Positions 28,613 to 32,942 of a DNA stretch of 32,942 nt are shown piece after piece. The DNA lies in assembly GCA_018400015.1 (NCBI GenBank), contig JAGYNB010000010.1, positions 1 to 32,942 on the forward strand, in the 5' to 3' direction. A model generated the notes under the pieces. That model worked only from the letters and a program-made list of their open reading frames with translations, made no database searches and was not told the DNA's origin. A program made the position numbers and the translations under genes. The stretch is from Candidatus Omnitrophota bacterium (GTDB lineage Bacteria; Omnitrophota; Gorgyraeia; Gygaellales; Gygaellaceae). Every line of letters starts with the position of its first letter. The stretch's first letter is position 1.

Positions 28613-30148
28613 CTACTTACAACTCCCTGTGTTGCCATCAAATGATAATTTCTCTAACCCCTTAATTTTTCTTAGTTCGCTTCTATCACTTAAACTGTAA
28701 TTATTCTGCCAAAATATAGTAGGACTTGCTGTTATGCCAAGCTCCCTACAAAGTCGTTCGCTTTCTTCAACCAAAGCCTTGCTTTCTTCAAAAGCCTTCA
28801 CTTCAATATCTTTGGGGTCTAAACCTAATGAAATTGCGCATTCGCGCCAAGAGTCTCTGTTTTTAATATCTTTATTGCGGCACAAGATATAATCAAAAAA
28901 CTTTTCAGGATAATATTTCTGCACAATCATCTGTTCTATGTCTTCATGCATCTCATCTTTGCCATGTAAAGATACAATATTATTCTCTTTGTCTTTAGAA
29001 AATATATATTTAAATTCAAGCTCTATATCCAGATTATCTTTTTTTATCTTATCTATCAAAGCATTCTCTAAAGACACGCTAAAAGGACAATAGCTCATCA
29101 CAAAAAGAGTTATTGTATTTTCTTTAATTTCTTTATCTAAAAACAACCTTCCTTTTAATAACAAGCTGGATGCAAGATAATAATCGCTCATATCAGACTT
29201 TTTAATCATTCCCGAAGCTGATGCACGATTATAATTCATAGCTGCCTCAATACCCTTATCAAACACTATCGCCGGCAATTTAGTCAAACCCGCTTCTTTT
29301 GATATTTTCTTTCCTAAATCAGTTTTGTAATCTAATCTTTTTAACAACATGCCGCGGAACATCTTCTCAAATGTACCCAAAGCGAATGTATAATCCGAAC
29401 AATCCAAACAATCCTCTGATTCGATTAAATAGGCTTTGAATTTAACAGCATCATTAAATTCACAAAATCCTTTTAAATCTTCAGTATTTACACATCTGCC
29501 GTTTTTAAAAGGCTGAATACAATCAGAATCGCTAAAACACTCTGGGAGCTTTTTACATACAGGCGGTTTAGCTATCCCCAATTCTTTACCAATAGCTATT
29601 GCCAAAGAAACAGCATCATTTTTACCTTCGTAAAGTTTATCATTAATGTATATTGTCGGACTGGCTATAATAGATAAACTATCAGTTTTCTTTATGCTCT
29701 TCAACAACAAAGCCTTGCCTACAGAATCAACCTTTTTCTTGATATCCTGCGGATCTAAACCAACCAATAACAAACTGCCCTGCCAATTATCCGACTGAAT
29801 TAAAGAATTCCTCACATCTAAATAATCCCAAAACTTTTCTCGATAATACGCTGCAATAACAAGCTGCCTCATATCTTCTTCAATTTCGCTGCTTCCGTGC
29901 ATAGAAACAAAAGTACTTCCTTCTATTTCAACGATATAATTAATTTCTACGTTGATTTGATCGCCAAAAATATCTTTTAATATCCTAAATGAATTCTCTG
30001 CTAAAACAGAGTAAGGACAATAACTCATTACATATAAATCAATTTTTGTTTTTTCTTGATTATTATTGGATACTTTAATAACTATTAATACTAATACAAA
30101 AACAATAGCTGCCGCAAAAGTAAATCTAACAAGAATCCTTTTCATCAT
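28613..30148 (-). CDS. Exported or membrane-anchored protein with three thioredoxin-like domains
   Basis: 511 residues with an N-terminal membrane segment (about 8-25) that can act as signal anchor. Domain 1 (about 35-195) has MSYCPYS (Cys44, Ser47) and a cis-proline motif ASPT (Pro164). Domain 3 (about 343-485) repeats the plan: MSYCPFS (Cys354, Ser357) and ASPT (Pro476); both also share a (M/L)HG block, YYxEKFxDY and GLDPxDI, so they look like an internal duplication. Between them is a Cys-rich stretch (Cys198, 204, 210, 219, 229) and a middle domain with CLDC (Cys247, Cys250) and LPAIVF (Pro292). This suggests extracytoplasmic disulfide exchange, with two single-Cys sites and one CxxC. Substrate unknown. 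Spacing is 12 bases after the kinase and 18 before recG. Confidence 0.8.
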   Translation of the reverse strand: MMKRILVRFTFAAAIVFVLVLIVIKVSNNNQEKTKIDLYVMSYCPYSVLAENSFRILKDIFGDQINVEINYIVEIEGSTFVSMHGSSEIEEDMRQLVIAAYYREKFWDYLDVRNSLIQSDNWQGSLLLVGLDPQDIKKKVDSVGKALLLKSIKKTDSLSIIASPTIYINDKLYEGKNDAVSLAIAIGKELGIAKPPVCKKLPECFSDSDCIQPFKNGRCVNTEDLKGFCEFNDAVKFKAYLIESEDCLDCSDYTFALGTFEKMFRGMLLKRLDYKTDLGKKISKEAGLTKLPAIVFDKGIEAAMNYNRASASGMIKKSDMSDYYLASSLLLKGRLFLDKEIKENTITLFVMSYCPFSVSLENALIDKIKKDNLDIELEFKYIFSKDKENNIVSLHGKDEMHEDIEQMIVQKYYPEKFFDYILCRNKDIKNRDSWRECAISLGLDPKDIEVKAFEESKALVEESERLCRELGITASPTIFWQNNYSLSDRSELRKIKGLEKLSFDGNTGSCK

Positions 30149-30160
30149 TTTCTCTTCCCT

Positions 30161-31060
30161 TTATAAAACAAATAATCTTTTATATTTATTCATTCGCTTT
30201 AGAATCATTATTTTATTAAGCTTGGAGGTTTCCTCTAAACCAAAACCTTCGACATTAAAAGAAGCAATTACAGTCCCCTTTATAATTGCATTAAAAATAG
30301 CCAACCTTGAAATATCTTTTTCTAAAGTAAGTGCTCCCATAAAACCTCCGGCAAAGGTATCTCCGGCACCGGTCGCATCAACTATATTATCGATTGGAAA
30401 CGCTGGAAGAGACACCATAAAACTACCTGCATTAAGCAATACCCCATGCTCTCCTTTTTTAATCAAAACAATTTTTGGTCCCATCCTCAACAGAATTTTT
30501 GAAGCCTTGATAATATTGTATTCTCCGGAAAGCTGCCTTGCCTCCTGGTCATTACAGAAAAAAATCTGCACCTTTTTTAACACTCGCAGAAGATCCTTTT
30601 TGCTGTTTTCAATCCAATAGTTCATGCTATCACAGGCCACAAGCCTGGGAGATGTAAACTTTTTTAAAAGCGACAATTGCAGCTTAGGATCAACATTAGC
30701 CAAAAAAATATTTTTGATTTTGCGTTGGTCATTTGTAATATCGGGCTTAAAACTGCCAAGTACGCCAATTACTGTTTTTTTAGTTATCGCGCAATTAAAA
30801 TCTTTAGTATACTCACCGGTCCAACGGAAATTTTCACCTTTAATAACTGATACTGAACGTAAATCAATGCCTTTATTTTTCAAGAAAATTTTATATTTCC
30901 GCGGAAAATCACTGCCAATACACGATACCAAATTAACTTTGGTAAAAATCTTTGCCGCCATAGAAAAATGAACTGCTGAACCGCCTAAAATATCCTTTTT
31001 TAGATTAACTGGTGTTTTAACAGTATCTAGCCCTATCGTACCTAATACAATTATACTCAT
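30161..31060 (-). CDS. PfkB-family carbohydrate kinase, substrate unknown
   Basis: Ribokinase-fold kinase of 299 residues. The N-terminal GGSAVHFSMAAKIF (about 26-39) forms the substrate-side motif, and VDATGAGDTFAGGF (about 227-240) is the C-terminal signature with catalytic Asp234 and the anion hole. Most of the substrate lid is short, as in the nucleoside/sugar kinase branch. I cannot assign ribose, fructose, adenosine or another substrate. The ATG overlaps the stop of the upstream fusion protein by 4 bases (ATGA), so the two are translationally coupled, and a thioredoxin-like protein follows 12 bases later. Confidence 0.85.
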   Translation of the reverse strand: MSIIVLGTIGLDTVKTPVNLKKDILGGSAVHFSMAAKIFTKVNLVSCIGSDFPRKYKIFLKNKGIDLRSVSVIKGENFRWTGEYTKDFNCAITKKTVIGVLGSFKPDITNDQRKIKNIFLANVDPKLQLSLLKKFTSPRLVACDSMNYWIENSKKDLLRVLKKVQIFFCNDQEARQLSGEYNIIKASKILLRMGPKIVLIKKGEHGVLLNAGSFMVSLPAFPIDNIVDATGAGDTFAGGFMGALTLEKDISRLAIFNAIIKGTVIASFNVEGFGLEETSKLNKIMILKRMNKYKRLFVL

Positions 31061-32942
31061 TCTGTATACTCCACTATTATTGGGTCTTCTTCTAATACCA
31101 ATTTTAAAATATTATTTCTTACCGGTTTCAAAATACTCACGGCTTCCGATTGTTTCGTTCTTGTAAAATTCAATGTTACCCTTGCTGATTCGGCAGGAAT
31201 CTCTAAAATAACCTTTTGTCTAGGATAATTCTCCCATGGCAAAAAGAATTCTTTTGCATCGTTCCATAAAGCATAAATAACCGTATTATCTTTCATGAAT
31301 TTAAAACCGTATATACCAGGACCTAAACTGAGCCTTTCTAAAAACACAGCTTCTCCTAATTTATCGTTAACCAACCTTAAAGCATAAAAAGAAGGCCTCT
31401 GCTTTCCTTTGGTGTCAATTAAACCTGAAGTATAGTTGCCATCTTTTGAATTCTCCAATGACTGAAAATTAACCTTATCAACTCCAAACGCTTTCAGAAT
31501 AACCGCTTTTTTAAATAAGTTATTGGATTGCTGCCGGATAATCCATTCATGTGTAATATCATACCTTTTATGGCGCTTATCTTGAAGAATTCTTTTTAAT
31601 AACCTTGCTCTTTTAAAGTAATGGTTTGAATATTTCTCTTGCTCGGTTAAAAAGATAGAATCTATTAAGTTAACGCTCGCCCAAACGGGAACATGAATAT
31701 TATAAACGCTTAATTGATCTGTTATATAATTGACTAAATCGGGAATGCCAGTGTAATCATAGTCACAGCATAATTCAATTGCATCGCAGAAAGAAACAAG
31801 CTTAATAAATCTTTTTGCACAAAAAAGCACTTCGGTAAGTTCTCCCTGATAGTTATGAAATGGTCTTCTCTTTACGCGCTCATCAAAAATACTACCCATA
31901 TCCACACCACTAAGAACCACCTTTACCTTAGAATTGGCCTCTTTCAAAGTCTTACTAGTAAGCTTTAAAAACTCCGCAAAGCTCCTATAATCATCTTTAC
32001 AAAAATTGCGAAAGATATCCTTAGAACCGACTGAATAATAAAGAACCGGCTTTTGTATATTAGGCATATCCGAAGAACCATTCCCGTCATACCGGCCGAC
32101 CAAAGCAAAAATAAACTCTTGAAAATGTTTTCTATACTCTTGTTTTACCCATAAAAAACTTGGGGTTTCTTCGCTTTCAGCACGCTCTTTTGCCGCCCAG
32201 GACGAATAGGGATCAATGGCAAGCTGGATGTTAAAACCGGCATTTTGCCACTCGTTAATAAGAAAATCCAACTTTTCCCACTCATAGGAATGCGCACCAT
32301 CACCAGATGGCGCAGAAGGTTCTATTTCATTCCATGTTATATCGATAAATTTTACCCAATTACTACCTGTATCTTTATAAAAACTTGCCTGCTGTCTTAA
32401 AATCCTTCCATCAAAATCCCTGTTACCATAACCAATACCGAAATAAGATAATTCATTATCTTGACAAAATCCCGCTAAAGGATTTAATAATAGAATAATT
32501 AACGCCATTAGTAAAAAACGTATCTTGGGAAAAAACGCTCCGGTCTTCTGCTTATACTCAATAAATTCTTTATTATATTTTAATTTCAATGTACCATCCT
32601 CTTTTTTCGCTAAAAGTATATATGCCGGAACTAACACTAAAAACATAATCATTGATGGCAAAGTCGGTGACTTGATAAAATAAATAAAACAAATCAAAAA
32701 TAACCCTGTATACTGTGGATGCCTTATATACCTATATATACCTGAAGTCACAAGATGCTGATTGGCTTTATGGTAAATACTCTTCCATCCTAGCACCAAT
32801 AAAGTAAAACCGATCAATAGCCCAGAATGAAAAATAAAAAGAAGAAGCCTCCTTGCAAATTCATTATTGTCTAAACCTAAATATACCAGTAAAAGATGGA
32901 TCCTATGCAAATCAAAAACAGGCAATATATTGCTCTGCTTGA
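31057..32942 (-). CDS. Fusion protein: ICMT-like membrane methyltransferase plus glycosidase-like domain (5' end outside window)
   Basis: The frame stays open to the right edge; the first possible start inside is a TTG at 32925, so the true start is probably outside. Numbering from that TTG, residues 25-135 form an isoprenylcysteine/phospholipid methyltransferase-like domain: two to three membrane helices, GIYRYIRHPQYTGLFL (62-77) and the acidic KKEDGTLKLKYNKEFIEY block. A hydrophobic segment (138-153) resembling a signal peptide follows. Residues 158-622 look like a GH39-type TIM-barrel glycosidase with a beta-sandwich tail, but where relatives usually have a (G/L)NE acid/base motif this protein has YYSVGSKD (296-303). 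The domain may bind rather than cut sugars. No ribosome site precedes the internal Met140, so a single fused product is likely. Confidence 0.75.
   Translation of the reverse strand, partial: KQSNILPVFDLHRIHLLLVYLGLDNNEFARRLLLFIFHSGLLIGFTLLVLGWKSIYHKANQHLVTSGIYRYIRHPQYTGLFLICFIYFIKSPTLPSMIMFLVLVPAYILLAKKEDGTLKLKYNKEFIEYKQKTGAFFPKIRFLLMALIILLLNPLAGFCQDNELSYFGIGYGNRDFDGRILRQQASFYKDTGSNWVKFIDITWNEIEPSAPSGDGAHSYEWEKLDFLINEWQNAGFNIQLAIDPYSSWAAKERAESEETPSFLWVKQEYRKHFQEFIFALVGRYDGNGSSDMPNIQKPVLYYSVGSKDIFRNFCKDDYRSFAEFLKLTSKTLKEANSKVKVVLSGVDMGSIFDERVKRRPFHNYQGELTEVLFCAKRFIKLVSFCDAIELCCDYDYTGIPDLVNYITDQLSVYNIHVPVWASVNLIDSIFLTEQEKYSNHYFKRARLLKRILQDKRHKRYDITHEWIIRQQSNNLFKKAVILKAFGVDKVNFQSLENSKDGNYTSGLIDTKGKQRPSFYALRLVNDKLGEAVFLERLSLGPGIYGFKFMKDNTVIYALWNDAKEFFLPWENYPRQKVILEIPAESARVTLNFTRTKQSEAVSILKPVRNNILKLVLEEDPIIVEYTE

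Follow-up and report, generated by a model that had tools for sequence, protein, structure and literature searches.

We propose, with a probability of roughly 0.4, that P0001, a protein of an Omnitrophota bacterium with three thioredoxin-like domains, is a membrane-anchored extracytoplasmic mixed-disulfide reductase or isomerase working in a CcdA-fed reductive pathway, with its penultimate residue Cys510 acting as the resolving thiol and with the central domain, D2, perhaps re-reducing the enzyme in the source genus. The thiol chemistry and its direction, the roles of Cys510 and D2 and the nature of the clients are what we infer here, and the electron donor of P0001 is tentatively assigned by analogy with its relatives. 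The features of the gene are collected in Table 1, with positions referring to the window, i.e. the whole analyzed stretch of 32 942 nucleotides.

Table 1. Features of P0001 in the window
Feature	Position	Strand	Remarks
Triple-thioredoxin protein gene P0001	28613..30148	-	511 aa; full-length ortholog 67% identical in Ca. Gygaella obscura
N-terminal hydrophobic membrane anchor/signal (predicted), residues 5–26	30071..30136	-	Lipobox Cys absent
D1, monothiol GILT/DsbA-like domain, residues 34–192	29573..30049	-	42% identity to D3; D1 tree grouping
CPYS active-site motif of D1, residues 44–47, Cys44	30008..30019	-	Cys invariant in four orthologs; fourth position S/A
Cys-rich linker, residues 198–231	29456..29557	-	Cys 198, 204, 210, 219, 229
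D2, thioredoxin-like domain, residues 232–338, LPA cis-Pro motif	29135..29455	-	PDB profile matches; weak model
CLDC of D2, Cys247/Cys250	29399..29410	-	Missing from orthologs G061 and G074
D3, monothiol GILT/DsbA-like domain, residues 344–498	28655..29119	-	PF01323 and PF03227 above gathering score
CPFS active-site motif of D3, residues 354–357, Cys354	29078..29089	-	Cys invariant in four orthologs; fourth position S/G
Cys423 and Cys437, putative structural disulfide of D3	28838..28882	-	Positions gained/lost jointly
C-terminal tail ending in GSCK, penultimate Cys510 (codon 28619–28621)	28616..28654	-	Invariant in four orthologs

Domain architecture and fold

The CxxS–CxxC–CxxS pattern that an initial annotation of this DNA had noted was found at residues 44–47 (CPYS), 247–250 (CLDC) and 354–357 (CPFS), and each of the three domains also has a cis-Pro-type motif, as described there (ASPT at 162–165 in D1, LPA at 291–293 in D2 and ASPT at 474–477 in D3). 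The outer domains, D1 and D3, are indeed duplicates and DsbA-like, with 42% identity across 136 aa (E 2e-31) and with scores above the curated cut-offs for both PF01323 (DSBA; residues 409–485, 36.4 bits against a cut-off of 25.6) and PF03227 (GILT; residues 346–438, 31.3 bits against 22.4), and by Pfam they are thus classified as DSBA/GILT-like. For D2, we found no curated Pfam match of its own. A D2 profile built from 37 family members, when searched against the PDB, matched almost exclusively thioredoxin-fold chains (best match 1a8l, E 2.6e-4). A model of D2 alone, made from two sequences and of low confidence (pLDDT 40), was used for topology only and had the order beta-alpha-beta-alpha-beta, in which the CxxC lies at helix 1 and the cis-Pro motif ahead of strand 3, and Foldseek with this low-confidence model gave thioredoxin and PDI structures as top matches (1a8l, probability 0.98). 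Judged from the profile and from this low-confidence model, D2 is a thioredoxin-fold domain with a CxxC and a cis-Pro motif, and the region of residues 240–330 is hence thioredoxin-like, as had been claimed. The full-length AlphaFold2 model, also made from two sequences, was of low confidence (pLDDT 41).

The hydropathy of the N-terminal anchor peaked at 2.87 (residues 5–24), and in one ortholog, that of genome G061, the signal looks cleavable, with AYA at its end. The source genome comprises 1.41 Mb and is 93.5% complete, and the PfkB kinase and PEMT-like fusion genes that neighbor P0001 are conserved also in Ca. Gygaella obscura. At 31057–32925 of the window (minus strand), a phospholipid/isoprenylcysteine methyltransferase-like membrane part is fused to a glycosidase-like C-terminal part, an unusual combination, with a weak GH42 match.

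Conservation of the monothiol sites in orthologs and relatives

Orthologs of P0001 were found in Ca. Gygaella obscura, its nearest named relative (dN 0.21 and dS 2.07, with dS being saturated), and at 32–33% identity in G061 and G074, two genomes of another class, and the protein is, from this conservation, not a product of chance. The D1–linker–D2–D3 architecture was seen only in the source genus and in G061/G074, giving four orthologs from two lineages, while matches to a D1/D3 profile were obtained in 127 of the 384 Omnitrophota genomes of a sample drawn from a larger group; near relatives were identified by scanning genome contigs with six peptide patterns. The D1 domains of the source genus and of G061/G074 formed one group in the tree (support 100/99), which implies either that the D1/D3 duplication is older than the split or that the gene has been exchanged.

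Both outer domains proved truly monothiol, having one redox Cys each as first proposed. No Cys was found at the positions equivalent to 47 and 357 in the four orthologs (0/8 sites), and 19 of the 21 Cys-bearing D1/D3-type sites in Omnitrophota had Ser, Gly, Ala or Val instead of a second Cys (CPYG four times, CPYS and CPFG three times each, CPFS and CPFA twice each and others once), with CPAC and CSAC being the two exceptions. A Cys at positions 47 and 357 is accordingly not routine, and single-Cys outer domains are, on the basis of these alignments, a rule of the family and not a local mutation. The possibility that CxxS reflected a sequencing error or a recent mutation was ruled out, with the motif kept in Gygaella and the orthologs being monothiol too. 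In G061 and G074, the D1 and D3 sites read CPFA and CPFG and D2 lacks any Cys; as Ala or Gly here takes the fourth position, Ser is not special at these sites.

Most of the relatives within the same taxonomic order are proteins of 580–630 aa, in which a different N-terminal module is followed by the linker, D2 and a D3 without active-site Cys (LFISLFDKDA type). This module was judged by eye, unscored, to be a UshA-like metallophosphatase. The combination of such a UshA-like part with a four-Cys linker, a thioredoxin-like domain and a Cys-less GILT-like domain is found at L004:634-2385, L011:658-2388, L014:805-2616 and many other loci, usually with CxxC in the thioredoxin-like domain and in some lineages with an adjacent CcdA, and it is apparently a widespread and undescribed protein of Omnitrophota. 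A search for the UshA-like domain elsewhere in the source genome, run without a positive control, gave no match. In family f6 (L008, L014, L016, L023, L025 and L045), neither the CxxC of D2 nor the Cys of D3 remains, with the four linker Cys kept, and several of these genes adjoin CcdA.

Structural and candidate redox cysteines

Exactly seven Cys residues are invariant in the four orthologs, at 32–33% identity across classes, namely Cys44, 204, 210, 219, 229, 354 and 510. Those at 204, 210, 219 and 229 are family-wide. The linker does contain five Cys as originally noted, Cys198 being specific to the source genus. A redox relay role for them was considered and rejected: the quartet persists in relatives without redox Cys in D2 or D3 (e.g. 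L014), and is thus probably structural. As the presence of this quartet does not depend on redox Cys in other parts, Cys44, Cys354 and Cys510 are left as the candidate redox thiols.

Within D3, further Cys are located at positions 423, 437 and 467; neither these nor Cys510, the link to CcdA or the D2/D3 exclusion described below were mentioned in the initial annotation. Cys at 423 and 437 co-occur (both present in 64 cases, neither in 30 and only one in 1), as do those equivalent to residues 408 and 451 (both in 66, neither in 29), with the source genus having the former pair and G061/G074 the latter. Such joint gain and loss is as expected of two structural disulfides, and from the alignment both pairs look structural. 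The tails of the four orthologs end in GSCK, GSCR, GRCR and GRCQ, and the last dozen or so residues are unconserved except for Gly508 and Cys510. A Cys within the last six residues is found in 4/4 orthologs compared to 1/78 other family proteins (Fisher p 3e-6, with the sequences being related and the real weight that of about two lineages).

Dithiol D2 and Cys-bearing D3 seldom occur together

Among 86 D2–D3 units, 2 had a CxxC in D2 as well as a Cys in D3, 64 only the former, 12 only the latter and 8 neither. The Fisher p value of 6e-8 for this exclusion takes no account of phylogeny, with the D3 split being essentially one deep division. Both of the two units having both features belong to the source genus, and the combination of a dithiol D2 with a Cys-bearing D3 is, as read from these sequences, exceptional in the family. 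The D2 tree has long branches, and neither places the source genus nor tells a kept CLDC from a regained one. As orthologs of the same architecture lack D2 Cys, a D2 relay would be at most a genus-level addition.

CcdA links and the redox setting of the source genome

Directly upstream of the ortholog in both G061 and G074 lies a gene for a thioredoxin (CGHC) fused to CcdA, and six relatives within the Cys-bearing D3 clade are themselves fused to CcdA, with L067 having a D2-like domain, a CPYS domain, a CSSC thioredoxin and CcdA in a single chain. Very large CcdA fusions are encoded at L065:1889-5230 (-), L066:4135-6981 (+) and L067:4273-6210 (-), where one chain combines further thioredoxin domains with one GILT-like domain or two, each having only one active-site Cys. 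A separate CcdA gene was present in the locus of fifteen family genes, including those of G061 and G074 and the gene of the 304-aa paralog described below, while CcdA is not adjacent at the P0001 locus (L001 and L077). No relevant literature was found on CcdA together with GILT.

The source genome also encodes a 304-aa paralog (CSSC, CKTC and a D3 without Cys; L002:1336-2250, G000 C1:351-352 kb, and L129), whose gene immediately follows that of a CcdA protein carrying a DUF1573-like (OS_HP2-like) region at its N-terminus; the two lie between serA-like and purA-like genes in a neighborhood that recurs in other Omnitrophota (L080 and L082). Unlike the CcdA of the sister class, this CcdA homolog (C1:351 kb) has no thioredoxin fused to it, and three further CcdA-type proteins are encoded in the genome. 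At L128:222-3542 (G000 C12:242.7-246.0 kb), an apparent operon encodes a permease, an arsenite-methyltransferase-like protein whose N-terminus is rich in Cys, a secreted thioredoxin with a CPSC motif and a CcdA-type protein. Neither DsbB (PF02600) nor VKOR (PF07884) was matched in the 93.5% complete source genome using profiles that do match control genomes, and P0001 is its sole PF01323 match.

Discussion

Monothiol sites alone can make, but cannot resolve, mixed disulfides. In the reaction that we propose, Cys44 of D1 and Cys354 of D3 would attack client disulfides, and since neither domain has a resolving Cys of its own, resolution of the resulting mixed disulfides would fall to another thiol, for which Cys510 of the tail is the likeliest candidate, or to the client in an isomerization. 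The oxidized enzyme would then be re-reduced by a dithiol thioredoxin, which in the sister class would be the CGHC thioredoxin fused to the neighboring CcdA and in the source genus possibly the CLDC domain D2 of P0001 itself, charged from a CcdA. The adjacency to CcdA in G061/G074 together with the six fusions points to such a CcdA-fed reductive pathway. Mouse GILT mutated to CxxS was still able to reduce a disulfide substrate, although more weakly; the undetectable reductase activity of mosGILT, a natural CxxS GILT, counts against our proposal (PMC6060088). CxxS PDIs are both holdases and isomerases, with release through another Cys of the protein or through the client (PMC12384036). It seems unlikely to us that P0001 has a split active site in which Cys510, on a swinging tail, supplies the missing resolving thiol to two monothiol domains, the enzyme being recharged, uniquely in the source genus, by a dithiol thioredoxin domain in the same chain.

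The main rival to a CcdA-fed reductase or isomerase, possible though somewhat unlikely, is an ERp44-like holdase, in which the monothiol domains would hold clients or partners through long-lived mixed disulfides or by a hydrophobic groove alone, with the tail Cys and the client governing release and with no net redox catalysis. ERp44-type CxxS PDIs act in that manner, and it has been proposed that their clients are released through a second Cys located outside the motif (PMC12384036); binding without chemistry is made plausible by the many family members, indeed the majority, that have lost all D3-site Cys yet keep the fold. The retention of Cys44, Cys354 and Cys510 across 32% identity, however, and the CcdA fusions in the Cys-bearing clade, favor electron flow. 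It is rather unlikely that the protein is driven mainly by D2, whose CLDC pair would reduce or resolve mixed disulfides at Cys44 and Cys354. Such an internal relay would agree with a dithiol D2 and a Cys-bearing D3 meeting only in the source genus (2/86 units of the sample), and D2 could take the part of the thioredoxin that the CcdA homolog at C1:351 kb lacks; orthologs of the same architecture nonetheless keep both monothiol Cys with a D2 devoid of Cys, and the D2 tree leaves it undecided whether CLDC was kept or regained. The relay from D2 to the outer domains suggested in the initial annotation thus fails as a core mechanism, and may at most operate in the source genus. Finally, P0001 could be an oxidizing DsbA-like thiol protein or a general isomerase working without CcdA, which we find quite improbable. 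D1 and D3 do score in the DSBA family and a CxxS PDI keeps isomerase, but not oxidase, activity (PMC12384036), but an intradomain disulfide for transfer cannot form at a monothiol site and the DsbB and VKOR matches are absent from the 93.5% complete genome.

P0001 resembles several known systems without coinciding with any of them. It shares with GILT the PF03227 match of D3 and, by reading of the sequence, an HG-x2-E in D1 (MHGSSE) and D3 (LHGKDE); all Cys of the GILT signature, CQHGx2ECx2Nx4C, are absent from P0001, with the last one present in G061/G074 and most relatives. Unlike GILT, it is bacterial and membrane-anchored, with CPYS and CPFS in place of CxxC and with two copies per chain plus the linker and D2. 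The DsbA family (PF01323, e.g. BdbD, for which the sequence match was weak, E 0.015) has in common with P0001 the DSBA match, a thioredoxin domain with inserted helices and the cis-Pro loop, whereas P0001 lacks the second active-site Cys, is duplicated and has no DsbB or VKOR partner found in its genome. Relatives of P0001 share with the DsbD/CcdA-linked periplasmic thioredoxins of CcmG and TlpA type a link, through fusion or gene adjacency, to CcdA together with a CxxC thioredoxin, but P0001 is not beside CcdA, and monothiol outer domains and a tail Cys are not known as features of those proteins. As for the CxxS PDIs ERp44 and AGR2, neither is known to have a tail Cys. They are likened to P0001 by their site, ERp44 being a multi-thioredoxin protein with a CxxS site and with an additional Cys that is proposed to release the client (PMC12384036). 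They are, however, eukaryotic ER proteins, and ERp44 has one CxxS site where P0001 has two.

Bacterial monothiol thioredoxin-fold enzymes other than glutaredoxins are little studied, and the present family, with CcdA fusions among its members, provides a natural series of two-domain units showing reciprocal loss of the dithiol and the monothiol site. If the monothiol sites are indeed resolved by the tail Cys, the problem of the resolving cysteine would here have a new solution, and one found in a phylum with no DsbB or VKOR match, at least in the source genome. The conservation of these Cys residues in distant relatives, including that of the tail, suggests an unusual handling of disulfide bonds outside the cell membrane.
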